From Ilumatobacteraceae bacterium (lineage in GTDB: Bacteria; Actinomycetota; Acidimicrobiia; Acidimicrobiales; Ilumatobacteraceae): a DNA stretch of 37,933 nucleotides. The translations under genes and the position numbers were made by a program. The stretch lies in the NCBI GenBank assembly GCA_024644465.1, contig JAHEKY010000020.1, forward strand, positions 1 to 37,933. Direction: 5' to 3'. Of this stretch, positions 5,992 to 32,877 are shown piece after piece. How positions within the stretch are numbered: position 1 is the stretch's first letter; each line of letters opens with the position of its first letter. The notes beneath the pieces were generated by a model. That model did not search any database. It worked only from the letters and a program-made list of their open reading frames with translations, and was not told the origin of the DNA.

Positions 5992-6013
5992 GCACGTCGG
6001 GCGACGCGGATCG

Positions 6014-6048: not shown

Positions 6049-6054
6049 ATAGCG

Positions 6055-6661: not shown

Positions 6662-6674
6662 CGTGCCTGGCACG
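6662..6674. repeat. Short palindrome CGTGCCTGGCACG flanked by a 10-bp direct repeat
   Basis: The 13-nt palindrome has the core GTGCCTGGCAC, identical to the centre of the larger palindrome at 8578-8614. ACTGCGACTC occurs on both sides, at 6645-6654 and 6675-6684. It lies in the 273-nt intergenic region between the lipoprotein and channel genes, where I see no other clear element. Confidence 0.5.
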
Positions 6675-6765
6675 ACTGCGACTCGGCCCGCGGCCGGTCT
6701 CCGCATCTCGCCGCCGTCGCCGGCTGTGACAACATCAGTTCGGTGAGATCGTCTGGCGTCCCGCC

Positions 6766-8559: not shown

Positions 8560-8577
8560 CGGCTGACGGCCGGCAGG

Positions 8578-8614
8578 GGTGTTACAGCTGGTGCCTGGCA
8601 CCAGATGTAACACC
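8578..8614. repeat. 37-nt near-perfect palindrome after the channel gene
   Basis: An 18-nt arm (8578-8595) is the reverse complement of 8597-8614 at 17 of 18 positions, around a single T. The core is GTGCCTGGCAC. It lies 18 nt after the channel stop codon and 46 nt before the GcvT-like gene. It could act as a terminator, but its core is shared with palindromes at 6662 and 14019, which suggests a dispersed repeat. Confidence 0.7.
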
Positions 8615-8660
8615 TTCGTCCGCACGATTGGGCGTGCGGTGACGCGGTACGGTCCGCTGC

Positions 8661-9914: not shown

Positions 9915-11515
9915 GCGACCGTGAGTACGACGCGATCGTGATCGGCGGCGGCCACAACGGCCTCGTCAACGCCGCCTACCTCGCGAAGGCGGGCCTGCGC
10001 ACGCTGCTCCTCGAGCGGCGCCACCTCGTCGGCGGCGCGGCGATCACCGAGGAGCTCAGGCCCGGCTTCCAGTTCACGACGTTCTCGTACGCGCTGAGCC
10101 TGCTGCGGCCGAACATCATCCACGAGCTCGACCTCGTCCGCCACGGTTTCATGCCGCTGCTGATGCCGTCGTCGTTCTGCCCGATGGAGAACGGCGACAG
10201 CCTCGTGATGGGTCAGGACCGCAACGAGAACATCAAGGAGATCGCCCGCCACTCCCCGCACGACGCGGACGCCTACGACCAGTACAGCCACGACATGGAC
10301 ATGGTCGTGCGGGCGGTCAAGCCGTTGTTCGACTCGGTGCCGCCGAACCTCTTCGACACGTCCCCCGACGGGCTCGCCGAACTGGCCGACCTCGCCCGGC
10401 ACCTGCGCGGCATCGAGCCGACCGTGGTGCACAATCTCGTGCGGCTCCTCACCGGCAGTGCGGCCGATTTCCTCGACGACTACTTCGAGAGCGACGTCCT
10501 CAAGGGCTACCTCGCGTCGTCGGGCATCATCGGAACGAAGGTCGGCCCGATGTCGCAGGGTTCCGGGCTGGTGTTGCTGTTCCACAGCATGGGTGAGCAC
10601 GACGGCCACTTCGGCAAGTGGGCGTTCCACAAGGGCGGCAACGGCGGGTTCACGCAGGTGCTCGCGAGGGCCGCCGAGGCGCTCGGTACCGAGATCACGT
10701 TGAATGCCGAGGTCGAACGGGTGATCACGACGAACGGGAAGGCGACGGGCGTCGCGCTCACCGACGGCACCGAACTGCGCGCCGACGTCGTTGTCTCCGC
10801 CGCCGACCCGCGCCGCACGTTCACCGAGTTCGTCGACCCGCGCGAGCTGCCCGCGGATCTCGTCGACAGCCTCCGGCGTTATCGGTACCAGGGCACGTCG
10901 TCGAAGGTGAACTTCGCGCTCGACGGCCTCCCGCGCTACCCGTCACTCGGCGATCGCAGCGACATGTTCCGCGGGTTCACGAACATCGGCCCGACCGTCG
11001 AGTACCTCGAGCGGGCCTTCGACGAGGCGAAGTACGGCTGGTACTCGACGCGGCCGTTCATCGACGGCGCGATCCAGTCGACGATCGACCCGGACATGGC
11101 GCCGCCCGGCAAGCACGTGATGTCCTGCTTCGTGCACTACACCCCCTATGAGCTGAAGGGCAGCACGTGGGACGCCGAACGGGAGCAGATGGCCGACAAC
11201 GTGCAGGACACGCTGGAGTCGTTCTTCCCCGGCTTCGGCGACCTCGTGCTGCAGCGCGAGATCGTCACGCCGCTCGACATCGAGACCGTCGCCGGCCTGC
11301 CGGAGGGCAACATCTTCCACGGCGAGTTCCTCGCGCCGCAGATGTACTTCTTCCGGCCGGCGCCGGGCTGGAACCAGTACCGGACGCCGATCGACGGCTA
11401 CTACCAGTGCGGGTCGGGGACGCACCCGGGTGGGTGCGTCAGCGGCGGCCCCGGCTGGCTCGCCAGCAAACAGATCCTGAAGGACCTCGCCGCCCGTTCG
11501 TCGCAGCGGACGTGA
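9911..11515 (+). CDS. PYROXD2/phytoene-desaturase-like FAD oxidoreductase
   Basis: A 534-aa FAD-dependent oxidoreductase of the amine oxidase/CrtI superfamily. The dinucleotide-binding loop is IVIGGGHNGLVNAAYLAKAG (11-30), followed by the second Gly-rich motif LVGGAAITEE. The C-terminal FAD signature is QCGSGTHPGGCVSGGPGW. The spacing and the phrase FSYALSLLRP match the PYROXD2-like branch, whose reaction is uncertain in both bacteria and mitochondria. It starts with ATGA overlapping the GcvT-like gene's stop. The pairing suggests that it oxidises the same methylated compound or its product. The 3' end is followed by a strong hairpin and repeats. Confidence 0.88.
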   Translation: MSDREYDAIVIGGGHNGLVNAAYLAKAGLRTLLLERRHLVGGAAITEELRPGFQFTTFSYALSLLRPNIIHELDLVRHGFMPLLMPSSFCPMENGDSLVMGQDRNENIKEIARHSPHDADAYDQYSHDMDMVVRAVKPLFDSVPPNLFDTSPDGLAELADLARHLRGIEPTVVHNLVRLLTGSAADFLDDYFESDVLKGYLASSGIIGTKVGPMSQGSGLVLLFHSMGEHDGHFGKWAFHKGGNGGFTQVLARAAEALGTEITLNAEVERVITTNGKATGVALTDGTELRADVVVSAADPRRTFTEFVDPRELPADLVDSLRRYRYQGTSSKVNFALDGLPRYPSLGDRSDMFRGFTNIGPTVEYLERAFDEAKYGWYSTRPFIDGAIQSTIDPDMAPPGKHVMSCFVHYTPYELKGSTWDAEREQMADNVQDTLESFFPGFGDLVLQREIVTPLDIETVAGLPEGNIFHGEFLAPQMYFFRPAPGWNQYRTPIDGYYQCGSGTHPGGCVSGGPGWLASKQILKDLAARSSQRT

Positions 11516-17085: not shown

Positions 17086-17652
17086 TCAGGGCGCGAGCGC
17101 GATCGAGTCGCACAGCCGGAGACCGCGATCGAGATCGCCGCGGTCCTGGTTGCGCGCCCACTGGAGCCACAACCCGTTCTGGATGACGATGATGTCGGTC
17201 GCCCGCTCCGTCGACTGCCGCAGCGTCAGGTGTGGGCGGGCGTTGCGGATGAGCTTCGCCAGGTTCTTCGCGTAAGGGTCGCACATGCTTCGTTCGACGT
17301 TGGCGATCTCGTCGTCGGTTCGCGCCACCGCCCAGACCGAGATCCACAGTGCGAGGTAGTCGGGGGCGAGGAAGTCGTCGTGGTACGCGCCGCGGATGTA
17401 GGCCCGGACGCGGTCGTCGGCGCCGTCGATCCCGGCGATCGCCTCGTTCGTCTTGTCGAGCAGCCGGTCGGTGGCGAGCTGGAACGCAGCTTCGATCATC
17501 GAGCGTTTGTCGTCGAAGTGATAGCTGAGCAGCCCGAGCGACACGTCGGCTTCTCGGGCGACGGTGCGCATGCTCGCCCCGTCGATGCCGTCGCGGGCGA
17601 TGCACGACATCGCCGCGTCGAGGATCTGTTCCTGCGTCTCGGACAGTGTCAC
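17086..17652 (-). CDS. TetR-family regulator of the divergent catabolic cluster
   Basis: A 188-aa TetR/AcrR-type repressor. The N-terminal helix-turn-helix spans about residues 8-54, with the recognition section MRTVAREADVSLGLLSYHF and the usual DDK that follows. The C-terminal ligand domain is helical, with Trp/Tyr-rich segments (LALWISVWAVAR, NGLWLQWARN), and looks BetI-like. The GTG start at 17652 begins directly at TLSETQEQILDAA; the upstream open frame is not protein-like. Two 18-bp dyads lie in the shared intergenic space with the ten-gene cluster that runs the other way, so autoregulation and control of that cluster are very likely. The effector is unknown, presumably a cluster substrate or intermediate. 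Confidence 0.93.
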   Translation of the reverse strand: MTLSETQEQILDAAMSCIARDGIDGASMRTVAREADVSLGLLSYHFDDKRSMIEAAFQLATDRLLDKTNEAIAGIDGADDRVRAYIRGAYHDDFLAPDYLALWISVWAVARTDDEIANVERSMCDPYAKNLAKLIRNARPHLTLRQSTERATDIIVIQNGLWLQWARNQDRGDLDRGLRLCDSIALAP

Positions 17653-17672
17653 GCGATCCAGTCTGACGGAAC

Positions 17673-17690
17673 ACTGGACAATCGTCCAGT
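17673..17690. promoter_or_regulatory. TetR operator site 1
   Basis: ACTGGACaatcGTCCAGT is a perfect dyad with 7-bp arms. It covers the -35 box TGGACA (17675-17680) of the rightward promoter and lies 20 nt from the GTG of the TetR gene. Confidence 0.75.
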
Positions 17691-17703
17691 CGGTGCGTAC
17701 GAT
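17675..17703 (+). promoter_or_regulatory. Promoter of the ten-gene catabolic cluster
   Basis: TGGACA (17675-17680, 5 of 6 to consensus), 17-nt spacer, TACGAT (17698-17703, 4 of 6). Transcription would begin near 17710, about 53 nt before the first gene's ATG. The -35 lies in operator 1 and the start point lies in operator 2, so a bound TetR dimer at either site would block polymerase. Confidence 0.6.
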
Positions 17704-17706
17704 GCG

Positions 17707-17724
17707 ACTGGACGAACGTTCAGT
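17707..17724. promoter_or_regulatory. TetR operator site 2
   Basis: ACTGGACgaacGTTCAGT repeats site 1 with one mismatch between its arms. The centres of sites 1 and 2 are 34 bp apart, just over three helical turns, so two dimers could bind on nearly the same face. Confidence 0.7.
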
Positions 17725-17762
17725 TCGTGGACCGAGACGACGAAGGGGAAGAACGGAGCCAG

Positions 17763-18635
17763 ATGCCGACGGCATTCGCTGCTGTGGAGATCGATCTCGA
17801 CGCGTTGATCGACCTCGACGCGCACCCGATCCACGAGGTGGGCAGCCCAACCCGCTCGGCGCTCGTCGCCGAAGCTCGCGCGCAGATGGGCACGTCGGGT
17901 TGCTTCCGGTTTCCGGGGTTCGTGCGCGCCGAGGCGGTCGAGCGGATGTGCGCCGAGGCCGCCGGCCTGCACGACGCGACGTACTGGTCGCAGGCGGACC
18001 ACAACCCGTACTTCTCCGAGGACGACGAGTCGTGGCCGGCCGACCATCCCCGCCGCACGTTCCAGCACCGGCGCAGCGGCTTCATCAACTCCGACATCCT
18101 CACGACCGACTCGGTGTTGCGCCAGTTGTACGACTGCGACGTGCTGCTGCACTTCGTCTGGGAATGCCTCGGCACGCCGAAGCCGATCTACCGCTGGGCA
18201 GATCCACTCGGTCGCAACCCGTACGGGGTGATGGAGCCGGGCCATGAACTGCCGTGGCACTTCGACGGCAACGAGTTCACCGTCAGCGTCCTCGTCCAGC
18301 GCGCCGACGTCGGCGGCGTGTTCGAGTACGTGCCCAACATCCGCCGTCCGGATTCGGAGAACTTCGAACACGTCGCCCACGTGCTCGCCGGGGGCCGCGA
18401 CGGAGTGCGCCGACTCGACCTCGTGCCGGGCGACCTCCAGTTGTTCGCCGGCCGCTACTCGATGCATCGCGTCACCGAGGTCGAGGGGGCCACGACGCGC
18501 TACATCGGCCTACCGACCTACGTGCACGACCCGTACCGGATGAATCGCCCGTACCACTCGACGTCGATCTACGGCCGGGCGACACCGCAGCACGTCGAAC
18601 GCGAGCGGGTGCTCGTCGACGGGTTGGTCGACTGA
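17763..18635 (+). CDS. 2OG-Fe(II) oxygenase (PhyH-like), first gene of the cluster
   Basis: A 290-aa non-heme iron oxygenase. The facial triad is H166-F-D168 in LPWHFDGNEF and distal H235 in RYSMHRVTE, with R246 (TTRYIGL) placed to hold the 2-oxoglutarate carboxylate; the fold is double-stranded beta-helix, phytanoyl-CoA dioxygenase-like. It would hydroxylate or dealkylate a small substrate and so open the pathway encoded downstream. ATG 17763 has GGAG at 17754-17757; an earlier GTG at 17727 is less likely. Its stop overlaps the ATG of the dehydrogenase gene (TGATG), which implies co-translation. It is the promoter-proximal gene behind two TetR operators. The substrate is unknown; it is unlikely to be phytanoyl-CoA. 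Confidence 0.85.
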   Translation: MPTAFAAVEIDLDALIDLDAHPIHEVGSPTRSALVAEARAQMGTSGCFRFPGFVRAEAVERMCAEAAGLHDATYWSQADHNPYFSEDDESWPADHPRRTFQHRRSGFINSDILTTDSVLRQLYDCDVLLHFVWECLGTPKPIYRWADPLGRNPYGVMEPGHELPWHFDGNEFTVSVLVQRADVGGVFEYVPNIRRPDSENFEHVAHVLAGGRDGVRRLDLVPGDLQLFAGRYSMHRVTEVEGATTRYIGLPTYVHDPYRMNRPYHSTSIYGRATPQHVERERVLVDGLVD

Positions 18636-19564
18636 TGATCCGCACGGTCGGCTTCATCGGGCTCGGGAACATGGGCGGCCCGATGGCCCGCAATGTCGTG
18701 CGCTCCGGCTTCACGACCGTCGTCGCCGACCTCGACCCCGCGAGGGTCGCCGCGCTCGTCGCCGACGGGGCCGTTGCGGCGGTCGACGCGGCCGCCGCCG
18801 CGCACGACGCGGACGTCGTCATGACGTCGCTTCCTGGCCCCGCGCAAGTCCGCTCGGTCGGCGAACAGATCCTCCCGGTGATGCGTCCGGGTGCGACCTG
18901 GATCGACCTCAGCACGAACGACCTCACCTGTGCCCGCGATCTCGCCGAGATGGCTGCCCAGCACGGCATCGACGTGCTCGACGCACCGGTCACCGGCGGC
19001 ATCGAGGGGGCGCAGGCCGGCACGCTGAACGTGCTCGTCGGCGGTGACGAAGCGGTGCACCGCCGCAACGTGCCCGTGCTGCAGGCGATCGGCGAACGGT
19101 ACGACCTGATCGGCCCGCACGGGGCCGGGTACGTCGCCAAGATCGCGCAGGTGATGCTGTGCTACCTCAACTCGGTCTGCCTGACCGAGGCGCTGTTGCT
19201 CGGCGTCAAGGGCGGCGTGGCGCCGGCTGCGATGCTCGACATCATCGGCAACAGCACCGGGCGGAGCTACGTCGCGGAACGCTACGGGCCGGAGATCCTC
19301 GCCGGCAGCTACGACGCGAGTTTCGATCTGACGCTCGCTGCGAAGGACCTCCGCCTCGCGCTCGGCCTCGCCGCCGACGTCGGCGCGAAGCTCGACTTCA
19401 CCGCCCGCGTCAGCGAGCTCTACCGCGACGCAGAGGCCCGCTTCGGGCCGGGTGCCCCGCACCTCACAGCGATGCGCACGATCGAGGACGCCAACGACCT
19501 CGTGCTCCATCACGCCGCGCCCGACACCGCCTCCCCGACACCGCCCGCCCACGCGAGAGGATGA
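18635..19564 (+). CDS. Beta-hydroxyacid dehydrogenase (3-hydroxyisobutyrate dehydrogenase family)
   Basis: A 309-aa NAD(P)-dependent dehydrogenase oxidising a 3-hydroxyacid (or reducing the semialdehyde). The Rossmann loop is FIGLGNMGGPMA (7-18). The substrate-binding signature DAPVTGGIEGAQAGT is at 116-130 and the catalytic Lys is K169 in GAGYVAKIAQ. Asp33 after the second strand (VVADLDPAR) suggests NAD+ rather than NADP+. The family includes HIBADH, tartronate semialdehyde reductase, L-threonate dehydrogenase and glyoxylate reductase, so identity is not fixed. A Pro/Ala tail (about 295-309) extends beyond the fold. It overlaps the oxygenase stop by one base and is followed 4 nt later by the aldolase gene. 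Confidence 0.92.
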   Translation: MIRTVGFIGLGNMGGPMARNVVRSGFTTVVADLDPARVAALVADGAVAAVDAAAAAHDADVVMTSLPGPAQVRSVGEQILPVMRPGATWIDLSTNDLTCARDLAEMAAQHGIDVLDAPVTGGIEGAQAGTLNVLVGGDEAVHRRNVPVLQAIGERYDLIGPHGAGYVAKIAQVMLCYLNSVCLTEALLLGVKGGVAPAAMLDIIGNSTGRSYVAERYGPEILAGSYDASFDLTLAAKDLRLALGLAADVGAKLDFTARVSELYRDAEARFGPGAPHLTAMRTIEDANDLVLHHAAPDTASPTPPAHARG

Positions 19565-19568
19565 CCCC

Positions 19569-20375
19569 ATGACCGACGACCCCACGACCCGCCGGGAAAC
19601 GGCCGGCAACCGCGAAGTCTCCGCCGACGACTTCCGATCGGCACAGGCCGGCAGCTTCACCGGCGACGAATGGCAGGCGCGTGTCGACCTGGCCGCGATG
19701 TACCGGCTCGCCGCCCACTTCGGCTACGACGACCTGGTCTGGAACCACATCACGATGCGCGTGCCCGGCTCCGATCACGACTTCTTCCTCAACAAGTTCG
19801 GTCTGCTCTACAACGAGGTCACCGCGTCCAACCTGATCAAGGTCGACAGCGACGGCACCGTCCTCGAGGGGCCCGCCGACGTCAACACGGCCGGCTTCGT
19901 GATCCACTCCGCGATCCACAACGACTTTCCGCAGTGGAAGGTCGTCTTCCACGCGCACGTCCCGGACGCCCTGGCGGTCACCGCGCTCACCAACGGGTTC
20001 GAACACCTCGTGCAGGACACCTCGATGCTCTACGGCGAAGTCGGCTACCACGACTGGGAGGGATTGTCGCTGACGCTCGAGGAGCGCGAGCGCCTCGCCA
20101 AGAACATGGACGGCAACCGGGCGCTGATCATGCGCAACCACGGCTTCCTCACGGTCGGCGAGACCGCCGGCGAGGCGTTCATGGTGATGCACTACCTGAT
20201 CCGCGGGTGCCGCACGCTGCTCAAGGCGTACGGCAGCGGCCTCGACGTCGACCCCGGCCCGACCGACATCTGGGAGCTGTCGAAGCGCCAGTACGACAAC
20301 TTCCCCCTCGGCAAGCACGAGTGGCCCGCGCTGCTGCGGCTGCTCGACCAGACCGACCCGAGCTACCGCCAATAG
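19569..20375 (+). CDS. Class II aldolase/adducin-family protein
   Basis: A 268-aa zinc-dependent aldolase or epimerase fold protein. Metal ligands are visible: H128 and H130 in VVFHAHVPDA and H191 in MRNHGFLTV. The catalytic Glu found in fuculose-phosphate aldolase (in the PSSE motif) has no counterpart; the same place reads DVNTAGFVIHSAIH, as in adducin-like members whose reaction is often unknown. It may therefore decarboxylate, epimerise or cleave an unphosphorylated acid. No sugar or acid kinase (for example DUF1537) is encoded in the cluster, which also argues against a phosphorylated substrate. The ATG at 19569 follows GAGAGG at 19555-19560. A stretch of 19 nt separates it from the next gene. 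Confidence 0.88.
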   Translation: MTDDPTTRRETAGNREVSADDFRSAQAGSFTGDEWQARVDLAAMYRLAAHFGYDDLVWNHITMRVPGSDHDFFLNKFGLLYNEVTASNLIKVDSDGTVLEGPADVNTAGFVIHSAIHNDFPQWKVVFHAHVPDALAVTALTNGFEHLVQDTSMLYGEVGYHDWEGLSLTLEERERLAKNMDGNRALIMRNHGFLTVGETAGEAFMVMHYLIRGCRTLLKAYGSGLDVDPGPTDIWELSKRQYDNFPLGKHEWPALLRLLDQTDPSYRQ

Positions 20376-20394
20376 CCGAGGCGCGCCGCGACCG

Positions 20395-21480
20395 ATGAAG
20401 ATCGAGCACATCGAGACGACCCTCGTCGACGTGCCCTTGCGCGCCCCGATCGGCACCGCGATCCACTCGATCCGATCCGTCGGCTGCGTGCTCGTCGACG
20501 TGACGACAGTCGACGGTGCGGTCGGCCAGTCGTTCGCCTTCACCCTCAACGGCGACCGGTTGCGGGCGCTCGACGAGACGGTCACCGGGCTCGGGCACCT
20601 CGCCGTCGGCCGTCCGGTGTGCGAGACGACGGCGATCTGGGATGCGATCTGGGACGAGATCAACCCGACCGGACACAAGGGCACCACCGTCTCGGCGCTG
20701 TCGGCGATCGACGTCGCGTGCTGGGATGCGTGGGGCCGCACCCTCGGCCAGCCGCTCCATCGCGTGTTCGGGGCGTGTCGCGACTCGATCGACACCTATG
20801 CGAGCTCGGGGCTGTGGCTGAACGCCTCGATCGACGAACTCGTCGCGGAGGCCGCCGAGTTCGTCGCGCGCGGGTTCCGGGCAGTCAAGCTGCGGATCGG
20901 TTCCGACGATCCGGATGCCGACGTGGCACGGGTGCGGGCGGTGCGTGCCGCGGTGGGCGACGACGTCGGCCTGCTCGTCGATGCGAACCAGAAGTTCACG
21001 CCGAAGGAGGCGATCCGGCTCGGCCGTCGGCTGGAGGAGTTCGACCTGACGTGGTTCGAGGAGCCGGTGTCCGCGGACGACCTCGTCGGACATGCCGACG
21101 TCCGGGGCGCGCTCGACACGCCGATCGCGTCGGGCGAGACCGAGTACACCCGGTTCGGGATGCAGGCGATGCTCGACGCCCGCGCCGCCGACGTGTTGAT
21201 GCCCGACCTCCAGCGGATCGGCGGCTACACCGAGTTCCGGCGGGCTGCGGCGGCCGCGGCAGCCCGGCACGTTCCCGTGTCGAGCCACTTCTTCACCGAG
21301 CACAGCCTCGCCCTCGCCGGATCACTGTCGAACTGTGTCTCCGTCGAGCACGTCGACTGGTTCGCGCCGCTGTTCCGCGAGCGCGTCGAGCTCTGCGACG
21401 GACGCCTGCTCGTTCCCGACCGGCCGGGACACGGCTTCACGTTCGACCCCGACGCCGTCGGCCGGTTCCGACGCGTGTGA
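20395..21480 (+). CDS. Mandelate racemase-subgroup enolase-superfamily enzyme (dehydratase or epimerase)
   Basis: A 361-aa enolase-superfamily member with capping domain (1-125) and (beta/alpha)7 barrel. Mg2+ ligands are D196 (LLVDANQKF), E222 (TWFEEPV) and E248 (SGETEYT). The bases are K165-L-R167 (AVKLRIG) on strand 2, and the His-Asp dyad D271 (MPDLQRIGG) and H298 (VSSHFF), which marks the mandelate racemase subgroup. Arg in place of the second Lys of KxK weakens racemase action and favours a dehydratase, where the His acts alone. Known acid-sugar dehydratases share this core; betaine epimerases use a KxK/K set instead. A substrate alpha-hydroxy acid is thus likely. It is followed by a 91-nt gap, the longest in the cluster. 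Confidence 0.9.
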   Translation: MKIEHIETTLVDVPLRAPIGTAIHSIRSVGCVLVDVTTVDGAVGQSFAFTLNGDRLRALDETVTGLGHLAVGRPVCETTAIWDAIWDEINPTGHKGTTVSALSAIDVACWDAWGRTLGQPLHRVFGACRDSIDTYASSGLWLNASIDELVAEAAEFVARGFRAVKLRIGSDDPDADVARVRAVRAAVGDDVGLLVDANQKFTPKEAIRLGRRLEEFDLTWFEEPVSADDLVGHADVRGALDTPIASGETEYTRFGMQAMLDARAADVLMPDLQRIGGYTEFRRAAAAAAARHVPVSSHFFTEHSLALAGSLSNCVSVEHVDWFAPLFRERVELCDGRLLVPDRPGHGFTFDPDAVGRFRRV

Positions 21481-21571
21481 TGCGCGCCCCCGCCAGCCTT
21501 CCGTGGACGGATCGTTGCGGAATCCGCATCACAACGTCCTCAGAACGTCGGGTGGGCAGTCGGGAGTGGCA

Positions 21572-22480
21572 GTGAGCAAGCCGGAGAAGTGGTCCGACCC
21601 GGCCCACAAGCTGTTTGCCCACCAGGTCGGCTTCACCGCGCCGCCGATGGACTTCGACGCGGCCCCGAGCGACTTCCTGCGGATCTGCCCGCCGACCGTC
21701 GGCGTGCACGGCCGGTTGCTCCACGCGCCCGGCTACGCCCACGAGTTGTCGCAGCGCGCCGACAACTTCCACCTCTTGGAGGACGTCGTCCACTGCATGT
21801 CGAACGCGGGGGCCGACGTCGTGGGGCAGGTCGGCACGAACTGGGTGCACGCGAACGGTACTGACGTCCACGACATCCGGCGCTTCGTGCGCGAGGTCGG
21901 CGAGAAGTACGAGACGCCGTTCCACATGGCCGGGATGACGCTCGTCGACGCCTGCGAGGCGAACGGCTACGAGCGCGTCGCGCTGAACTCGGTGTACTTC
22001 TGGCCGGACTGGCGCGACGGAGTCGTCCGGTTCCTGCGCAGCGCCGACATCGACGTCGTGTGGTTCGGCAACTTCGTCGACCAGGGCTGGTACCCGACCC
22101 AGCAGGAGGTCAACGACCTCACGTGGATCTTTCCCGGCGAGCTCGCCCTCGACTCGATGCGCCACGTGCTCGACCAGGCCCCCGACGTCGACGCGGTGCT
22201 CGTCAACGGGATGTCCAACTACCGCGACGCACGCGGTCAACCGCAGCGTCTCGTCGGCCTCGTCGCCGACATCGAGGCCGCGATCGGCACGCCGGTGATC
22301 TCAGCGGACGCGTCGCTCTACTGGGCGGTGCTGCGCACGCTCGGCGTCGAGCCGGTCGGCCGGCACGGCTCGCTGCTGTCGTCGCTGCAGGCACACGAGA
22401 CCGCCGCACCAGCCGCGACCGACCACGCCGCAACCGGCCACGCCGCAACCGCCGATGCTTCGACCGATGATGAGAGGTGA
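21572..22480 (+). CDS. Asp/Glu racemase superfamily protein (maleate isomerase/arylmalonate decarboxylase-like)
   Basis: A 302-aa protein whose pattern (GVHGRLLHAPGY at 44-55; ADVVGQVGTNWVHANG at 81-96; DAVLVNGMSNYRD at 207-219) matches the maleate cis-trans isomerase/arylmalonate decarboxylase branch. Those enzymes rely on one or two Cys: here the corresponding places appear to be Thr89 (GTN) and Ser215 (GMSN), so neither catalytic Cys seems present. The nearest cysteines, C40 and C75, are elsewhere. It may use another mechanism or only bind substrate. GTG 21572 has GGGAG at 21562-21566. The C-terminus is a low-complexity Ala/Thr/His tail (about 275-300) encoded by small repeats. Placement within a cluster of carboxylic acid enzymes suits an isomerase or decarboxylase role. 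Confidence 0.8.
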   Translation: MSKPEKWSDPAHKLFAHQVGFTAPPMDFDAAPSDFLRICPPTVGVHGRLLHAPGYAHELSQRADNFHLLEDVVHCMSNAGADVVGQVGTNWVHANGTDVHDIRRFVREVGEKYETPFHMAGMTLVDACEANGYERVALNSVYFWPDWRDGVVRFLRSADIDVVWFGNFVDQGWYPTQQEVNDLTWIFPGELALDSMRHVLDQAPDVDAVLVNGMSNYRDARGQPQRLVGLVADIEAAIGTPVISADASLYWAVLRTLGVEPVGRHGSLLSSLQAHETAAPAATDHAATGHAATADASTDDER

Positions 22481-22484
22481 ACCG

Positions 22485-23252
22485 ATGTTCCTGACACTGT
22501 GGGCCACGCCGCGATCGACGTCGACCGCGTTCGAGTGGATGATGCGCCAGCGCGGCGACTTCGACTGCTTCCACGAGCCCTGGAACGAGCTGTACTACTA
22601 CGGCGAGGATCGCCGCAGCGACCGCGACCGGCACGTCGATCCGAAGCCCGGCCACAGCTACGCCACGGTCTGGGCCGAGCTCACCGCACGTGCGGACTCC
22701 GGCAATGTGTTCGTGAAGGACTTCGCCTACTCGGTCGAGCACGATCTCGACGACGACAAGCTCGACGTCATGACGCATGCGTTCCTCATCCGCGACCCGC
22801 TGCGGGTCGTGCAGGGCCTCGCGAGACACTGGCCCGACTGCACGTTCGAGGAGGCCGGCTTCGAGTCGCTGCACCGCCTCTTCCAGCGCGCCACCGACCG
22901 GCTCGGCCGCGTCCCGCCCGTGATGTACTCGGGTGATCTGCTCGACGACCCGACCGGCACGACGCGAGCGTTCTGCGCGGCGGTCGGCATCCCGTTCCTG
23001 GCCGAGGCGCTGGCGTGGGAGGCCGGCGATCGCAGCGAAGTGGCGTGGTACGGCGAGGGCACCGGGCCGTGGCACGACAACCTGCGCGCGAGCACCGGCA
23101 TCCAGCATCCCGCCACCGAGTACCCGTCGCTCGACGACAACCCACGGCTCTTCGAGATCTACGAGCGGTGCATGCCGCTGTTCGACGAGCTGCGCCGGCA
23201 CGCAATCAGCCCGATTCCCGACCCGGCGACGCCGCGACCGCAGGAGGCATGA
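22485..23252 (+). CDS. Sulfotransferase-like P-loop protein
   Basis: A 255-aa cytosolic sulfotransferase-fold protein. The 5'-phosphosulfate-binding loop is at the very N-terminus, LWATPRSTSTAFEWMM (5-20), with the PRSxSTxF pattern typical of the bacterial sulfotransferase family. The second PAPS contact is the helix after AFLIRDPLRVVQGL. A conserved HEPWNELYYYG (about 30-40) follows strand 2 as in family members. It would transfer sulfate from PAPS to a hydroxyl or amine, or serve as a related kinase-like enzyme. This is unexpected in a degradative operon: it could activate a hydroxyl as a leaving group for later elimination. ATG 22485 has GAGAGG just upstream, and the gene is 4 nt from its neighbour. 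Confidence 0.85.
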   Translation: MFLTLWATPRSTSTAFEWMMRQRGDFDCFHEPWNELYYYGEDRRSDRDRHVDPKPGHSYATVWAELTARADSGNVFVKDFAYSVEHDLDDDKLDVMTHAFLIRDPLRVVQGLARHWPDCTFEEAGFESLHRLFQRATDRLGRVPPVMYSGDLLDDPTGTTRAFCAAVGIPFLAEALAWEAGDRSEVAWYGEGTGPWHDNLRASTGIQHPATEYPSLDDNPRLFEIYERCMPLFDELRRHAISPIPDPATPRPQEA

Positions 23253-23253
23253 C

Positions 23254-24024
23254 ATGGAGATCTCACTCGCCAGCAGGCGTGCGTTCGTGACGGCCGGTGG
23301 CGCAGGGATGGGCCGGGCGACCGTGCTGGCGATGCACCGGCTCGGCGCCGAGGTGTTCACGTGCGATGTCGACCCCAGCGGATTGGAGACGCTGCCCGAC
23401 GGCGTGTCGTCGTCGGTGTGCGACGTCACGAACTCCGCGGAGCTCGACGCGTTGTTCGATCGGTTCCTGCCCGACGGGCTGGACTTCATGATCAACAATG
23501 CGGGCGTCGCCGGGCCGACGAAGCTCGTCGAGGACATCACCGACGACGAGTGGCGCCACACGATGGCGGTCTGCATCGACTCGCACTTCTACTGCGCGCG
23601 ACGCGTCGTGCCCGTGTTCAAACAGCAGCGGCACGGCGCCATCGTCAACCTGATCTCCGGAGCGGGGATCCTCGGCTACCCGACCCGTTCGCCGTACGCC
23701 GCGGCGAAGTGGGCGGTCACCGGCCTCACCAAGACGCTCGCGATGGAACTCGGCCCCGACAACATCCGCGTCAACGGTGTCGTTCCCGGCAACGTGAACG
23801 GCGACCGGATGGAACGGGTGATCGCTGCGCATGCGACCACCGAGGGGCTCGACCCCGATGTCGTGCGCCGGATGTACGCGATCGGCACGTCGATGCAGTG
23901 CTACGTCGACCCGGAGGAGATCGCCGACCTGATCGTGTTCCTGTGCAGTGACTACGGCCGCCACATCTCGGGCCAGGTGATCGGCGTCGACGGCAACACC
24001 GAGACGCTCTGGCCGCGGAGCTGA
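23254..24024 (+). CDS. Short-chain dehydrogenase/reductase (cluster member)
   Basis: A 256-aa classical SDR. The cofactor loop is TAGGAGMGRA (13-22), followed by Asp38 (TCDVDP), which indicates NAD(H). NNAG is at about 80-83, and the catalytic residues are Ser in LISGAG with Y148 and K152 in YAAAK. The end GVDGNTETLWPRS is usual for the family's substrate-end segment. It would oxidise an alcohol intermediate to a ketone. AGGAGG at 23242-23247 is 6 nt from ATG 23254. It begins one base after the preceding stop and is 6 nt from the AcnX gene, so it is clearly part of the same unit. Substrate unknown. Confidence 0.93.
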   Translation: MEISLASRRAFVTAGGAGMGRATVLAMHRLGAEVFTCDVDPSGLETLPDGVSSSVCDVTNSAELDALFDRFLPDGLDFMINNAGVAGPTKLVEDITDDEWRHTMAVCIDSHFYCARRVVPVFKQQRHGAIVNLISGAGILGYPTRSPYAAAKWAVTGLTKTLAMELGPDNIRVNGVVPGNVNGDRMERVIAAHATTEGLDPDVVRRMYAIGTSMQCYVDPEEIADLIVFLCSDYGRHISGQVIGVDGNTETLWPRS

Positions 24025-24030
24025 TCGTCG

Positions 24031-25293
24031 GTGGGTTCGCCGGTGCGACTCGACGAGCGCGAACAGCGTTGGCTCTCGGGCACCGACGGCGCCGCGATGC
24101 AACTCGCGATGCAGATGATGGTGACGGCGGCGGACGTCTCGAGCGCTGCCGAGTTCGTCGAGATCGAGTTCGCGCACATCAACTCGAGCTTCTACTCGGG
24201 CCAGGTGTCGCTCGACTTCGCCGAGTTCCTGCTCGCCAACGGCGGGTCGTTCGCGGTGCCGACGCACACGAACGCCAGCCTGATCGACTGTTCGACGCCC
24301 GGGCTGCGTGCGGAACGGGACCACCCGGTCGAGGTCGGCGGGGCGCGCCGGCTGATGGAGATCTACGCCGAGCTCGGCGCGTCGGCGATGTGGAGTTGCG
24401 CGCCGTACGCCGAGCCGACCGGTCGGCCCGGAAAGGGAGCGCACATCGTCGGCTCGGAGTCGAACGCGGTGTCGTTCTTCAACTCGGTGCTGGGGGCGAG
24501 GACGAACAAGTACGGCGACTTCATCGACGTGTGCGCGGCGATGACCGGCCGCGTACCGTTGGCCGGTCTCCACACCGATGCCGGACGCCGGGCGTCGCAC
24601 GTCTTCGACGTCACGGGCCTGTCGGCCGACGATCAGGACGACCCGACCTTGCCCCACGTGCTCGGCATCATCCTCGGTCACGAGGCGGGTTCGGCGATTC
24701 CGGTCATCGTTGGCCTCGGCTCGGCGAGCGAGGACGATCTGAAGGCGATCGCCGCAGCCGGCGGCACGTCGGGAGCCGTCGAGATGTTCCACGTCGTCGG
24801 CATCACCCCGGAAGCACCGACGCTCGATGCCGCCACCGGGGGAGTGGCGCCAACGCGACGAACGATCGTCGATTCGGCGTTGATCAGGTCGACCCGCTCG
24901 CGCCTGTCGACATCGTCGACGGGGCCCCTGCGCGCGGTGTGTCTGGGGACTCCGCACTTCACGGCGAGCGAGTTCGCCGGCCTGCGTACCGCACTCGACG
25001 GTCGTTCCGTCGACGGTCGCGTGCAGCTGCTCGTCACGACGAGCCGGGCGGTGCTCGCCGAGATCGGGTCCGTGGGTTGGGACGAGGAGTTGCGCGCCGC
25101 GGGCGTGCAGATCGTGCTCGACACGTGCACGTACTACACGCCGCGTGCCCGTGGCGTCGCCGGGCTCGTGATGACGAACTCGGCGAAGTGGGCGTACTAC
25201 GCCCCGGGGATCCTCGGTGTCGAGGTCGCGTTCGGGTCACTGCAGGAGTGCGTCGACGCGGCGGTGTCGGGCAGGGTCGGCGACCGTGGCTGA
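24031..25293 (+). CDS. Aconitase X catalytic (large) subunit
   Basis: A 420-aa protein of the AcnX (DUF521) family, 4Fe/2Fe-S cluster dehydratases including cis-3-hydroxy-L-proline dehydratase and archaeal mevalonate-5-phosphate dehydratase. The family fingerprint is present: SESNAVSFFNSVLGART (142-158) followed by NKYGDF, CAPY at 123-126, and a Cys in LDTCTYYTP. The usual HxDxxxY motif near the N-terminus reads H49-I-N51-S-S-F-Y55 here, with Asn for Asp, so activity or substrate could differ. The two-gene layout (large, then small) is that of AcnX type II rather than the fused type I. The start is GTG 24031 with GCGGAG at 24015-24020; GTG 24043 is an alternative. The end overlaps the small subunit by 8 nt. 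Confidence 0.9.
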   Translation: MGSPVRLDEREQRWLSGTDGAAMQLAMQMMVTAADVSSAAEFVEIEFAHINSSFYSGQVSLDFAEFLLANGGSFAVPTHTNASLIDCSTPGLRAERDHPVEVGGARRLMEIYAELGASAMWSCAPYAEPTGRPGKGAHIVGSESNAVSFFNSVLGARTNKYGDFIDVCAAMTGRVPLAGLHTDAGRRASHVFDVTGLSADDQDDPTLPHVLGIILGHEAGSAIPVIVGLGSASEDDLKAIAAAGGTSGAVEMFHVVGITPEAPTLDAATGGVAPTRRTIVDSALIRSTRSRLSTSSTGPLRAVCLGTPHFTASEFAGLRTALDGRSVDGRVQLLVTTSRAVLAEIGSVGWDEELRAAGVQIVLDTCTYYTPRARGVAGLVMTNSAKWAYYAPGILGVEVAFGSLQECVDAAVSGRVGDRG

Positions 25294-25726
25294 CGGCAAG
25301 ATCCACGGCCGGGTGCTGCACGCCGGCGCGGCGACGGCGCCGATGATCCGGCTGGACGCCCCGCTCAGCTTCTGGGGTGGGTTCGACCCGGTGACCGGAC
25401 GGATCATCGACCATGCCCATCCGCAGGTCGGCGAGTCGCTGACCGGGCGGGTCGTGGTGATCCCCGGCTCGCGTGGGTCCTCCGGAACCCCCGGCGTACT
25501 CGCCGAATCGTTGCGCCGCGCGACCGGTCCGGCCGGGCTGGTCGTGCAGAAGGCGGACATCAACCTGACCGCCGGCGCCGTCGCCGCGAAGGCGCTGTAC
25601 GACCGGGCCTGCCCGATCGTGCTGCTCGACGATGCATCGTTCGCCGAAGTCGGGACCTGGAACGGCGTCGCGATCGCGACCGACGGCGCCGTCAGCCCGG
25701 ACGATCCCGACGGTGCGGCGCCGTGA
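25286..25726 (+). CDS. Aconitase X swivel (small) subunit
   Basis: A 146-aa DUF126 protein, the swivel domain of aconitase X, which pairs with the large subunit to close the active site. Signature pieces are APLSFWGGFDPVTGRIID (25-42), then PGSRGSSGTPGVLAE (60-74), where the conserved Ser and Gly contact substrate carboxylate, and ATDGAV near the C-terminus. The GTG start at 25286 overlaps the end of the large-subunit gene by 8 nt, and its own stop overlaps the GTG of the M24 gene (GTGA), so three proteins are translationally coupled. Length is normal for the separate small subunit. Function follows the large subunit: dehydration of a hydroxyacid. Confidence 0.92.
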   Translation: MADGKIHGRVLHAGAATAPMIRLDAPLSFWGGFDPVTGRIIDHAHPQVGESLTGRVVVIPGSRGSSGTPGVLAESLRRATGPAGLVVQKADINLTAGAVAAKALYDRACPIVLLDDASFAEVGTWNGVAIATDGAVSPDDPDGAAP

Positions 25727-26907
25727 GCGTCCCGATCGTCCCGCCGCCGCCGGTCGACGTCCAGCGTCTGCGTTCCCACCGCGTCGGGCGCCTCTGCGCG
25801 CAGTTGGCGGGGCGCGACGTTGATGCGATCGTGCTCACGAACCCGGTCAGTCTGCGGTACGCAGCGGACTGGCGCGAGTACGCGCTGTTCCAGTCGCACA
25901 TCCCGACCTACTACCTCGTGATGGATCGCGACGGACGGCTGACGATGTTCGGCGCGTACGCCACTGCCCATCCGACGATCGACGAGTTCCGCGTCGCCCA
26001 TCACCCCAACGTCTTCGACGGTGGCCTCGACACGGCGGTGACCGCAGCCGGCTTCGCCGACGACATCGCGGCGGTCGTCGGGCGCGGGACGCGACTCGCC
26101 GTCGAGCGCGTCAACCCGACCTGCGTCGACGCGCTGCACCGGCTCGGGTTCGACGTGATCGACGCCGAGCCGCTCGTCGAGATCGCCCGCTCGGTCAAGT
26201 CGAGTGACGAGATCGTCTGCATCCGTCACGCGATCGCGGTCGCCGAGGCGGCGATCGCGACGATGCGCGAGCGGGCCGTGCCGGGCGTGAGCGAGAACGA
26301 GTTGATGGCGGCGCTGCACCAGGTCAACATCGCGAACGACGGCGACTGGATCGACGGCCGGATGTTGTGCAGCGGCGAGCGCACCAACCCGTGGTACCAG
26401 GAGGCGTCGGCGCGCCGGCTGCGGGCGGGCGAGTTCCTCGCGTTCGACACCGACATGATCGGTCCGTTCGGATACTGCGCCGACATCTCGCGGACGTGGG
26501 TGGTCGGCGACGGAGGACCGACCGCCGAGCAGCGGGACCGGTACCGGCGTGCCCACGACGAGATCCACCATTTCGCCGAGCTGCTCGTTCCCGGGCGCTC
26601 GTTCCGCGAGCTCTCCGACGCAGCGATGCGCCAACCCGACGAATTCGTCGCCCACCGGTACGCCTGTCTCGCCCACGGCGTCGGCATGAGTGACGAGTGG
26701 CCACGGATCCACCATCGCTGCGATCGGGACGCGCACGGCTACGACGGCGAGGTCCGCGCCGACATGGTGTTGTCGGTCGAGAGCTTCGTCGGCTCGGATC
26801 GGGGCGGGCCCGGCGTCAAGCTCGAGCAGATGTACCTCGTCGGCGAACGCGGCGCCACCGCGCTGTCGACCTACCCGTTCGAGCCCACCCTCCTCGCCGC
26901 CCGGTGA
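25723..26907 (+). CDS. M24-fold metalloenzyme, DddP-like (DMSP lyase or relative)
   Basis: A 394-aa pita-bread-fold protein: creatinase-like N-terminal domain (about 12-150) and M24 metal-binding domain. Candidate ligands are D242 and D244 (AFDTDMIG), D254 (ADISRTW), H318 (AHGVGMSD), E353 (SVESF) and E368 (VKLEQMY). As I recall the Ruegeria DddP residues (D295, D297, D307, H371, E406, E421), the intervals +2, +10, +64, +35 and +15 are identical here. D324 and Y313 also fall at the places of its catalytic Asp377 and Tyr366. The SGERTNPWYQE segment is DddP-like as well. So a lyase acting on DMSP or a related onium acid is more likely than a prolidase. The GTG start overlaps the AcnX small subunit's stop. 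DddP is longer (about 450 aa). Confidence 0.82.
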   Translation: MSVPIVPPPPVDVQRLRSHRVGRLCAQLAGRDVDAIVLTNPVSLRYAADWREYALFQSHIPTYYLVMDRDGRLTMFGAYATAHPTIDEFRVAHHPNVFDGGLDTAVTAAGFADDIAAVVGRGTRLAVERVNPTCVDALHRLGFDVIDAEPLVEIARSVKSSDEIVCIRHAIAVAEAAIATMRERAVPGVSENELMAALHQVNIANDGDWIDGRMLCSGERTNPWYQEASARRLRAGEFLAFDTDMIGPFGYCADISRTWVVGDGGPTAEQRDRYRRAHDEIHHFAELLVPGRSFRELSDAAMRQPDEFVAHRYACLAHGVGMSDEWPRIHHRCDRDAHGYDGEVRADMVLSVESFVGSDRGGPGVKLEQMYLVGERGATALSTYPFEPTLLAAR

Positions 26908-27992: not shown

Positions 27993-28104
27993 AAACACAA
28001 CATCTGTCGCTGATCGTGCTGATGTGCGACGCAGTGTGCGCAAGAGCGTCTTGAGCGCCGGGTCGATCATGCCGTTGAGTTGGTGTGAGGAGGACACATC
28101 GGCG

Positions 28105-29091
28105 ATGAACACGGCGGAGCGGGCAGACAGGGTGGGCACGGGCGTGGAATGGCCGACGGTCGTCCTCGCCATCGCGGTGCACGGCAGCTGGCTGGCGATC
28201 GTGCTGACCCATGCGGCGGTGCCGTGGTGGGCGACGACGGTCGCCCTGGCAATCGTGCTGGCGTGGCACGGTTCGCTGCAGCACGAGGTGATCCACGGGC
28301 ACCCGTTCTCGAACCGGCGCGCGAACGACGCGCTGGGGTCGATTCCGCTGTCGCCGCGACTGCCGTACCAGGCGTACCGGCGCTACCACCTCCAGCACCA
28401 CGCGTCGCCGTCGCTGACCGACCCGCTCGACGACGTCGAGAGTTACTACTTCACGCCCGAGGCGTGGAACCGGCTGTCGCGCACCGGCCGCTGGATCGCC
28501 GTCGCCCACGCGACGCTGCTCGGGCGGATGATCCTCGGGCCACCACGAGAGATCTTCATCGTCTGGCGGTGGCAGTTCCGGGAGATCCGCAACGGTGACC
28601 GGGCACTCGCGCGCTGGTGGGCCACCCACTTGATCGCGTGTCTCGCACTCGGCGCGTTCGTCGTCGGCGCCGTCGGCATGCCGATCTGGAACTACCTCGG
28701 CGCGATCTACCTCGGCCACGGCGTGAGCCTCGTCCGCTCGTTCTGCGAACATCGTTGGGTATCCGGTTCGGACAGCCGGTCCGCGGTCGTGCGGTCCGGG
28801 CCGTTCTTCAGTCTCGTGTTCCTGAACAACAACCTCCATCACACCCATCACGCCCGTCCGGGGACACCGTGGTACCGACTCCCCGCGCTCGCCGTCTCGA
28901 TCGAGTCCGATCGGGCCGCCGCCGAGGGCGCCGGGCTGTACGCCGGGTACCTCGACGTCGCCCGCCGGCACCTCGTCCGGCCGATGGACGTCCTCGTCCA
29001 CCCGGACCACCGACTCGCGACCCCCGACGACGCGGTCGAGCAACCGGCTCCACGCCCGATACCGCTGGTGGCCCCGCAGCCTGCGTCGTGA
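28105..29091 (+). CDS. Membrane fatty-acid desaturase
   Basis: A 328-aa integral-membrane di-iron desaturase. The three His boxes are H60-EVI-H64, H95-LQ-HH99 and N-N-L-HH-T-HH with H245, H246, H248 and H249. Hydrophobic helices lie at about 18-36, 43-58 and in the C-terminal half (AFVVGAVGMPIWNYLGAIYL). The substrate would be an acyl chain in membrane lipid or acyl-carrier; regiospecificity cannot be read. Related members also hydroxylate carotenoids or alkanes. The ATG at 28105 is preferred because GAGGAGGA lies at 28087-28094; the open frame begins earlier at 28024. The stop shares GTGA with the next gene. The divergent XRE gene probably controls it. Confidence 0.9.
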   Translation: MNTAERADRVGTGVEWPTVVLAIAVHGSWLAIVLTHAAVPWWATTVALAIVLAWHGSLQHEVIHGHPFSNRRANDALGSIPLSPRLPYQAYRRYHLQHHASPSLTDPLDDVESYYFTPEAWNRLSRTGRWIAVAHATLLGRMILGPPREIFIVWRWQFREIRNGDRALARWWATHLIACLALGAFVVGAVGMPIWNYLGAIYLGHGVSLVRSFCEHRWVSGSDSRSAVVRSGPFFSLVFLNNNLHHTHHARPGTPWYRLPALAVSIESDRAAAEGAGLYAGYLDVARRHLVRPMDVLVHPDHRLATPDDAVEQPAPRPIPLVAPQPAS

Positions 29092-32855: not shown

Positions 32856-32877
32856 CGCGCAATCTTCGCGCAATCAG
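32856..32877 (-). promoter_or_regulatory. 11-nt-period direct repeat before the SARP gene
   Basis: Read on the minus strand, GATTGCGCG occurs twice with an 11-nt period, directly before the ATG. SARPs bind direct repeats spaced 11 nt, so this could be an autoregulatory site. Against this, it overlaps the end of the upstream small ORF and would leave little room for a leader. Confidence 0.35.

Follow-up and report, generated by a model that had tools for sequence, protein, structure and literature searches.

A conserved ten-gene operon beside a BetI-like TetR gene in the Acidimicrobiia, probably for the catabolism of onium carboxylates

We describe a gene cluster in a 37,933-nucleotide stretch of DNA from an Ilumatobacteraceae bacterium (GenBank assembly GCA_024644465.1, contig JAHEKY010000020.1, positions 1 to 37,933; hereafter the window), in which ten genes in one direction face the gene of a TetR-type repressor. 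We propose that the ten genes are transcribed together, as part of a regulon under a BetI-like TetR that serves to degrade onium (quaternary ammonium or sulfonium) carboxylate osmolytes, a reading to which we give a probability of about 0.68. The operon would most likely encode a route of catabolism that opens with a hydroxylation and takes a betaine- or sulfonio-type acid as its substrate. The strongest statement can be made at the level of the system: this looks like a modular onium-osmolyte catabolic unit that occurs in unrelated bacteria and on plasmids. In the Acidimicrobiia it is probably controlled by a BetI-like repressor, and the palindrome of this repressor is also found at dimethylsulfoniopropionate (DMSP)-demethylase-like and carnitine-type genes. 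The conserved unit, the common palindrome, the family memberships and the residue patterns come from the sequences, and from these we infer the mechanism. Considered by itself, the existence of the unit and of its regulon is very probable.

Onium osmolytes such as DMSP, glycine betaine and carnitine carry much of the marine carbon, nitrogen and sulfur and give rise to volatile amines and sulfides. A gene set found in Acidimicrobiia, SAR11 and marine gammaproteobacteria could name the enzymes for a compound that lacks known degradation genes. It would also offer a function for a subfamily of aconitase X (AcnX) that has lost its hydroxyproline-recognition residues, and its defined promoter and repressor could be used for substrate screening.

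Layout, conservation and modular structure of the gene set

The regulator, the two putative operators and the ten genes are as follows; the short names given here are used below.

17086..17652, minus strand, BetI-like TetR repressor (Pfam TetR_N, TetR_C_6), probable start GTG at 17652
17673..17690, unstranded, operator 1 (putative, from conservation), ACTGGACAATCGTCCAGT, 16/18 positions self-complementary
17707..17724, unstranded, operator 2 (putative, from conservation), ACTGGACGAACGTTCAGT, matches matrix and pattern
17763..18635, plus strand, Fe(II)/2-oxoglutarate (2OG) oxygenase, HalD/BesD fold, hydroxylase type (PF23169, 5.7e-10; H166-x-D168...H235)
18635..19564, plus strand, HIBADH-type beta-hydroxyacid dehydrogenase (PF03446/PF14833; NCBIfam HIBADH 207 bits, cut-off 292)
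19569..20375, plus strand, class II aldolase-fold protein, ALD (PF00596; alignment with E. coli FucA)
20395..21480, plus strand, mandelate-racemase-type (MR-subgroup) enolase-superfamily enzyme, MR (K165-x-R167, D271/H298)
21572..22480, plus strand, Asp/Glu-racemase-superfamily protein with an arylmalonate decarboxylase (Amdase)/maleate isomerase-like fold, AGR (PF17645, weak; Foldseek)
22485..23252, plus strand, sulfotransferase-like P-loop protein (Sulfotransfer_5), ST (PF19798, 3.8e-17; alignment)
23254..24024, plus strand, short-chain dehydrogenase, SDR (PF13561)
24043..25293, plus strand, AcnX large subunit, cluster-type subfamily (PF04412, 9e-111; AtAcnX Asp203 position is Asn)
25286..25726, plus strand, AcnX small (swivel) subunit (PF01989; RGSSGTP; AtAcnX Thr72 position is Gly)
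25723..26907, plus strand, M24-fold DddP-like protein, M24 (NCBIfam DddP 293 bits, cut-off 600; phmmer to 4rzy, 1.8e-68)

All ten reading frames are open and lie on the plus strand between 17763 and 26907. Three of the nine junctions overlap, the widest intergenic gap (91 nt, 21481-21571) separates the MR and AGR genes, and the remaining gaps are 1-19 nt given the chosen starts. A preliminary description, made from the letters alone, had reported ten same-direction genes with a longest gap of 91 nt and a TetR gene facing them across two palindromes, and the coordinates agree with it on both counts, the palindromes starting at 17673 and 17707. Its family assignments also agree with Pfam and NCBIfam, with the refinement that the oxygenase is a HalD/BesD-fold hydroxylase, and it was right that the set holds several elimination-type enzymes and neither a kinase nor a CoA ligase among the ten. 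The source genome comprises 3.37 Mb in 195 contigs and is 83% complete.

The gene set recurs elsewhere. When genome contigs were scanned with the oxygenase, the best 80 matches gave 79 distinct loci, one of which, from an Ilumatobacter metagenome-assembled genome (L023), holds all ten genes in identical order at 82-98% identity, and five more (L031, L035, L039, L042, L044) hold partial, mixed sets. Hence the conserved ten-gene block for which a neighbourhood search had been suggested is present complete in one other genome and in part in several. Across the 79 loci, and by family score limits, the neighbors of the oxygenase include ALD (48 loci), HIBADH (38), MR (24), M24 (16), SDR (11), AGR (7), ST (6) and AcnX (4). 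Co-occurrence was also assessed in an evenly drawn sample of the order, 298 genomes with our own among them. The oxygenase (at least 61% identity) is found in 18 of these, AGR (at least 58%) in 20 and the AcnX large subunit (at least 55%) in 11. All 11 AcnX genomes, which are spread over five families, also fall within both the oxygenase and the AGR sets, and the latter two share 14 genomes (hypergeometric tails of 3e-16 to 5e-15, calculated with shared ancestry ignored). For these three families co-occurrence elsewhere is seen, and its absence would, in the preliminary description, have counted against the unit.

Two modules can be seen, HalD-HIBADH-ALD-MR (module 1) and AcnX/AGR/ST/SDR, sometimes with M24 (module 2). 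They are joined in the window and in L023, joined wholly or partly in L031, L035, L039, L042, L044/L125 and L124, and separate elsewhere. The earlier view of the ten genes as a unit therefore stands insofar as they are conserved and apparently co-regulated, and it changes in that the unit is modular, with modules that are joined or apart and partly under the same operator.

The set extends well beyond the Acidimicrobiia. Of the 21 SAR11-type oxygenase loci (19 titled Pelagibacteraceae and two 'Alpha proteobacterium SCGC'), all have ALD, 20 have an FrhB-type flavoprotein, nine have HIBADH and seven a carnitine-dehydrogenase-like gene. The Antarctic Pseudomonas sp. MPC6 has a plasmid, typed as conjugative, that carries eight of the ten families inside 20 kb at 48-71% identity (oxygenase 57%, M24 48%, MR 58%, HIBADH 54%, AcnX small 51%, AcnX large 54%, ALD 61% and SDR, beside AcnX, 71%), together with FrhB, a tautomerase, GhrA, ProXWV and LysR and GlxA regulators. 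A smaller module, MR-LysR-HIBADH-ALD-GhrA with ATP-binding cassette (ABC) transporter genes, is found in Mesorhizobium amorphae (two plasmids) and Sulfitobacter SK012. A plasmid search with the oxygenase returned 92 records, all below 60% identity and 70 of them from Pantoea; the record of a Caballeronia match is unannotated. In the literature searched, where most subscription papers were outside reach, we found no paper on the gene set or its palindrome, in line with the earlier remark that no described pathway has this combination.

The TetR regulator, its palindrome and the regulon

The repressor has the Pfam TetR_C_6 'BetI-type' C-terminal domain, and among NCBIfam models BetI scores best, with 84.9 bits, below the cut-off of 201.3 (the scans used 17086-17694, that is, 14 residues upstream of the probable start). 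The half-site of the palindrome resembles the BetI box, published as ATTGACG*CGTCAAT (PMC12442346). Compared with the BetI choline repressor, to which it is closest by family score, the protein differs in reaching only 85 bits against a cut-off of 201, in having a longer palindrome and in lacking betAB genes in its operon. The term BetI-like therefore expresses kinship and says nothing of the ligand. Homologues of at least 45% identity are present in 14 of the 17 genomes searched, our own included, and from position and co-distribution the protein would bind the palindromes at 17673 and 17707.

An 18-bp matrix (consensus ACTGRACGATCGTYCAGT) was built from 22 sites that precede homologous oxygenase genes, with the window left out of the training. 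It scores the two window operators at 29.6 and 30.7 bits, out of a maximum of 33.9, and the next-best window site at 15.6. The weak palindrome-like sites are at 34452 (15.6 bits, GTTGAACGATCGTTCAAA, with a perfect 14-base core) and 24993 (15.5 bits). The pattern CTGRACNNNNGTYCAG occurs twice in our 3.37-Mb genome, both times at the operon promoter, and in the 17 genomes it has 74 matches versus 12 for the reversed pattern. Genomes G139 and G295 have neither an exact site nor a close TetR (none and 38% identity, respectively).

Where module 2 stands apart from module 1, the palindrome is found just upstream of SDR-AcnX (L118, L121, L122), of AGR/ST (L178, L186, L189) and of ST (L174), and in L146, on the contig of L035, it lies between divergent AGR and SDR genes. 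It also precedes M24/DddP-like genes (L179, L190, L194, and with weaker identity or at greater distance L175, L177, L200) and EamA/DMT transporters (L175, L181, L185, L191). Six DMSP-demethylase-like (DmdA-like) genes follow it (L176, L184, L188, L193, L195, L197), with 361-404 bits against a cut-off of 410 and far lower scores with GcvT or trimethylamine N-oxide demethylase models; a seventh such gene with a palindrome is in G171 and, by the matrix, another in G277. Locus L197 counts by construction, because the DmdA query came from it. In L198 the palindrome is followed by BBOX-like, BKACE-family and carnitine-dehydrogenase-like genes (230, 243 and 474 bits, each below cut-off), of which the first scores equally as a 2-trimethylaminoethylphosphonate dioxygenase. 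Among the 35 sites of 33 regions centered on a site, 18 have a listed family beginning at -40 to +250 bp from them, and random positions of the same regions do so in 3.4% of cases. A BetI-like TetR whose palindrome in relatives stands on DMSP-demethylase-like, DddP-like and carnitine-type genes therefore looks like the center of an onium-osmolyte regulon. As far as the accessible part of PMC13280387 goes, dmdA and ddd genes are reported in Acidimicrobiia with regulators named dddR and dddZ and with nothing like this regulon.

Two further kinds of gene were noted at palindromes. A 2-trimethylaminoethylphosphonate-dioxygenase-like gene (L182, 5953-7197; 310 bits, cut-off 400) overlaps a site and possibly represents another onium substrate class under the same repressor. 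Taurine-dioxygenase-like genes stand directly behind the palindrome in L192 (230 bits, cut-off 313) and L201, and sulfonates may belong to the regulon too.

Protein families, catalytic residues and transport

The oxygenase matches the Pfam HalD family with 39.4 bits (cut-off 26). With its AlphaFold2 model (pLDDT 92.4), the top Foldseek matches are HalD with ornithine, HalB, BesD and the BesD-like lysine hydroxylase 7jsd (ranks 1-8, E 3.5e-15 to 1.2e-12, 15-19% identity). In the HalD/BesD halogenases the carboxylate ligand of the Fe site is replaced by Gly or Ala. Here H166, D168 and H235 are invariant, with HFD in 54 of 54 sequences versus HWG in BesD, and since the HxD carboxylate is kept the enzyme is a hydroxylase and not a halogenase. 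It shares with BesD, HalD and HalB the fold and an invariant R103 that aligns with BesD Arg74, and it differs in its HxD triad and in having no His at the position of BesD His134; we presume the role of Arg74 and take His134 to bind lysine. Trimethyllysine was considered as a substrate, as the known members of this fold use lysine, and was set aside because the positions that we take to contact the amine in BesD are not kept.

The AcnX subunits were aligned with 7cnq/7d2r, and relatives were checked by alignment. The window protein keeps the base, Fe-S and carboxylate residues. It resembles AtAcnX in fold and at the positions of Ser70, Trp35, Cys273, Glu292, Ser293, Asn294, Cys508, Lys530 and Tyr534, and it departs from it by Thr72 to Gly, Asp203 to Asn, Ile206 to Phe and Cys71 to Ser. 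Two of these positions were read across the subfamily: among 16 cluster-type large subunits (window, L023, L031, L039, L042, L044, L102, L116-L124), position 203 is Asn in 14, Gly in two (L120, L121) and Asp in none, while position 72 of 15 small subunits is Gly in 14, Ala in one (L116) and Thr in none. A second AcnX clade in the order (L133, L136-L140), 45-48% identical, keeps Asp203 in six of six copies along with RGSSS[AG]S; L133 adjoins an AGR-ST pair and the others lie away from cluster genes. The possibility that this AcnX is a plain hydroxyproline dehydratase was set aside, the amine-binding residues of cis-3-hydroxyproline dehydratase not being kept. In the accessible part of the AcnX paper, types IIc-IIf are left without a function.

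ALD keeps the FucA metal ligands His92/94/155 as H128, H130 and H191. The position of FucA Glu73, which we take to be the catalytic residue, is Gly109, invariant in 49 sequences, and in alignments with ALD the same position likewise lacks Glu in NovR, adducin 1 and 3ocr. NovR and TqaM are oxidative decarboxylases of alpha-hydroxy acids. Because both are among the PDB matches and NovR also lacks the Glu, it is possible that ALD is a decarboxylase of this kind, acting in an alpha-oxidation of the betaine; ALD is closer to 3ocr, an unassigned protein, and to adducin than to NovR or TqaM. In MR, the residues K165-x-R167, D196, E222, D271 and H298 are invariant in 26 sequences, and the best model is L-talarate/galactarate dehydratase (270 bits, cut-off 500).

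AGR (28.7 bits with its NCBIfam model, cut-off 225) finds the hypothetical protein 4ix1 first and then arylmalonate decarboxylase by Foldseek (model pLDDT 81.5). Arylmalonate decarboxylase, maleate isomerase and Asp/Glu racemase use a catalytic Cys; AGR has no invariant Cys in ten sequences, and Cys75 is present in at least 90%. Sulfotransferases that use 3'-phosphoadenosine-5'-phosphosulfate have a 5'-loop PRSxST and a 3'-motif RDPxxxxxS. The 5'-loop (P-loop) motif is kept in six ST sequences, and the Ser of the 3'-motif is Gly in the window, L031, L039 and L044 and Ser in L035 and L081. In M24, residues D242, D244, D254, H318, E353, E368, Y313 and D324 are invariant in 17 sequences. The DMSP lyase DddP has the same M24 fold, and its metal ligands and its Tyr366/His371/Asp377 positions are kept in the window protein (the roles of the ligands, Tyr366 and Asp377 being presumed). 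The score is far from the model, with 293 bits against a cut-off of 600 in the window and 227, 256 and 310 bits in relatives.

Since AcnX, the 'aldolase' and the 'racemase' deviate at recognition or catalytic residues, these names, which the preliminary description had used, are right as labels of family or fold and cannot be read as reactions. It had also noted the absence of a transporter and supposed import from elsewhere. None of the ten genes is indeed a transporter, and what can be added is that betaine-type importers accompany the cluster in other lineages. Betaine-type ABC genes lie inside the clusters of Pseudomonas taeanensis, Pseudomonas sp. MPC6, Mesorhizobium, Sulfitobacter, SAR11 L078 and L152, the importer of the proteobacterial clusters being of the glycine betaine/proline type. 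L152, from another genome of the order, combines HalD-HIBADH-M24 with ProX and ProV. Choline/glycine-betaine models are the best match for the permease (249 bits) and ATPase (322 bits, cut-off 326.6) of Mesorhizobium L103, and none of its binding proteins tested had a model match at 1e-20; the Sulfitobacter cluster has an annotated glycine betaine binding protein. SAR11 L078 has choline dehydrogenase, BKACE-family, carnitine-dehydrogenase-like and BBOX-like genes and ProVWX around HalD-ALD, and a distant GbcA-like Rieske oxygenase lies beside seven of the 21 SAR11-type loci and also in L116. In our own genome, contig C182 (L207, 1-6000) carries a carnitine-dehydrogenase-like gene, a ProX-type binding protein, a double ProW-type permease and a TetR paralogue (41%). 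This locus is not under the present palindrome, as the best matrix score in its first 12 kb is 8.2. No BCCT transporter was found in our genome.

The betaine-type ABC genes, the L078 neighborhood, the BetI-type TetR and an oxygenase branch that acts on cationic amino acids point to onium acids as a probable substrate class rather than to one compound. The earlier expectation of a hydroxylated or onium acid is thus supported in its onium part. The substrate need not arrive hydroxylated: the oxygenase belongs to the BesD/HalD branch, and the structures solved in that branch are presented with lysine or ornithine.

Several neighborhoods of related genes were also noted. L116 holds a GbcA-like Rieske oxygenase, an SDR, a carnitine-dehydrogenase-like gene, a TetR and then SDR-AcnX (5590-11200), and an MttB-like trimethylamine methyltransferase homologue at 17624-19141. 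A plasmid of Rhodobacteraceae bacterium M382 (L105, 9992-20849) has a 37%-identical HalD-type oxygenase next to an MttB-family methyltransferase, two FAD oxidoreductases and an ABC transporter; this may be a further methylated-amine route that uses this oxygenase family.

Proposed reactions and alternative explanations

We suggest the following scheme. An onium acid would enter through a ProXW(V)-type importer and be hydroxylated by the HalD-type oxygenase, with the beta carbon, counted from the carboxylate, as the likeliest position. The resulting 3-hydroxy onium acid might then be oxidized by HIBADH, or in some SAR11 loci by the carnitine-dehydrogenase-like enzyme, to a 3-oxo acid that the metal-binding, Glu73-less ALD could cleave or decarboxylate. 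Alternatively or in addition, AcnX may dehydrate the 3-hydroxy acid, a step in which an MR-type cis-3-hydroxyproline dehydratase homologue possibly replaces it in proteobacteria. The DddP-like M24 protein would eliminate the onium group from a beta-onium intermediate as trimethylamine or dimethyl sulfide, and MR, AGR, ST and SDR would process the leftover short acid. TetR would repress the set until the onium compound or an intermediate binds. The interchange of HIBADH and the carnitine-dehydrogenase-like enzyme in SAR11 clusters suggests a beta-hydroxy acid, the possible interchange of AcnX and the MR-type homologue between lineages suggests its dehydration, and a DddP-like lyase implies a beta-onium acid. 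The order of the reactions is doubtful.

The scheme resembles the degradation of carnitine and gamma-butyrobetaine (BBOX, carnitine 3-dehydrogenase, BKACE and thioesterase, with homologues in L078 and L198) in that 2OG-dependent hydroxylation of an onium acid is followed by a beta-hydroxy dehydrogenase and C-C cleavage. It differs in that the oxygenase has the HalD/BesD fold, the dehydrogenase is of the HIBADH type and a class II aldolase-fold protein comes next, and MR, AcnX, AGR and ST of the window have no counterpart there. The glycine-betaine island of Arctic SAR11, for which its authors propose glycine betaine uptake and production (PMC12421898, accessible part), has HIBADH, a class II aldolase, BBOX, carnitine dehydrogenase, BKACE, a betaine ABC transporter and a DMT transporter in common with the present loci, whereas that part of the paper names no HalD-type oxygenase, MR, AcnX, M24 or AGR/ST and gives the aldolase no role.

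Several observations weigh against our reading. The ten-gene operon has no transporter, and 19 of the 79 oxygenase loci lack the other nine families nearby, partly because of contig ends. In the Mesorhizobium and Sulfitobacter cluster stretches read, no oxygenase is annotated, and the Asp-keeping clade of AcnX also adjoins an AGR-ST pair (L133). What ST, AGR and MR do, and which position is hydroxylated, is guesswork. As for the regulon, 17 of the 35 sites have no listed gene, four regions (L178, L186, L189, L205) had a cluster gene that was already known, and G254, with a TetR of 40% identity, has two exact sites, one of them without a listed gene. A matrix site above 18 bits is missing from twelve module-2 loci (L116, L117, L120, L123, L124, L126-L128, L130-L132, L134); of their genomes, G139, G295 and G254 have no close TetR, while G219, G171 and G149 do have one. 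In addition, the contig of L129 starts at the gene, and the site of L133 does not adjoin a listed gene. Of the 17 genomes, 16 have DmdA homologues, and our own is the one in which none was found (E 1e-60, in an 83% complete assembly). No site is near DmdA in G196, G139, G254, G214, G295, G149 and G273, and the one in G107 is weak (16.8 bits). The palindrome of our genome marks this promoter only, and because DmdA was not found there either, the link to DMSP and carnitine comes from the relatives.

Other explanations were weighed against the catabolism of an onium acid. The cluster might degrade (hydroxy)proline betaine or another N-methylated proline, with the oxygenase forming a cis-3-hydroxyproline-type compound, AcnX or its MR-type substitute dehydrating it and the ring then being opened and oxidized. 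The MR-type cis-3-hydroxyproline dehydratase homologue of the proteobacterial clusters (405 bits, cut-off 500) and the glycine betaine/proline-type importer fit this, and with an amine that lacks N-H the loss of Thr72 and Asp203 would make sense. We consider it unlikely nevertheless, as the nitrogen-binding residues are lost in all 16 cluster-type AcnX proteins while the six copies of the other clade keep the Asp, and a DddP-like lyase needs a beta-onium acid, which proline betaine is not. The chance is smaller still that the substrate is a sugar acid or neutral hydroxy acid, as in threonate or erythronate catabolism, with MR as an acid-sugar dehydratase and HIBADH plus ALD as a decarboxylating pair. 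The HIBADH and class II aldolase families do pair in acid-sugar pathways, which counts in favor here, MR is nearest to L-talarate/galactarate dehydratase (270 bits, cut-off 500), and an SMP-30/gluconolactonase and a UgpC-type ATPase lie about 10 kb off in Mesorhizobium L103. The betaine-type ABC genes, the BetI-type TetR, the DddP-like protein and the palindrome on DMSP-demethylase-like and carnitine-type genes all speak for an onium acid instead.

A further explanation of similarly low probability sees a number of small catabolic operons, unrelated to one another, that came together in this lineage by drift and have only a promiscuous regulator in common. The modules are apart in many genomes and the oxygenase is without the other families in L024, L026, L028 and L032, as this would predict; yet the AcnX subfamily, AGR and the oxygenase co-occur, a similar set is on a plasmid in another phylum, and joint loci exist (L023, L031, L039, L042, L044/L125, L124). 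That the cluster is biosynthetic, its HalD-family enzyme, sulfotransferase and racemase-fold protein building a modified amino acid, is very improbable. The solved relatives of the oxygenase are amino acid halogenases and hydroxylases, and a sulfotransferase-like gene is present. Against this stand the HxD Fe ligands of a hydroxylase, the lack of an assembly-line or ligase family among the ten, the palindrome shared with catabolic genes and the occurrence in SAR11.

A bolder form of the onium-acid reading, which we regard as improbable, takes the operon to be the whole of an undescribed route for degrading a marine onium compound that is abundant and lacks known degradation genes, with a single sensor serving several of the ocean's major osmolytes. 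A fitting candidate substrate would be 2-(hydroxymethyl)-N,N,N-trimethyl-beta-alanine, the head group of the algal betaine lipid diacylglyceryl hydroxymethyl-trimethyl-beta-alanine (DGTA), in which it is ether-joined. It fits because it is an analogue of 3-hydroxyisobutyrate (HIBADH), a beta-hydroxy acid (AcnX/MR) and a beta-trimethylammonio acid (DddP-like). The 2OG oxygenase could then open the DGTA ether, and the BetI-like repressor would co-switch DMSP demethylation, DddP-like cleavage and carnitine oxidation in marine Acidimicrobiia.

Outside the operon, and with no operon link seen, the window contains a fatty acid desaturase-family gene (28024-29091) beside a phosphonate-binding-type periplasmic protein (PF12974, 29070-29861), which adjoins a BTAD/AAA regulator (29886-32873).

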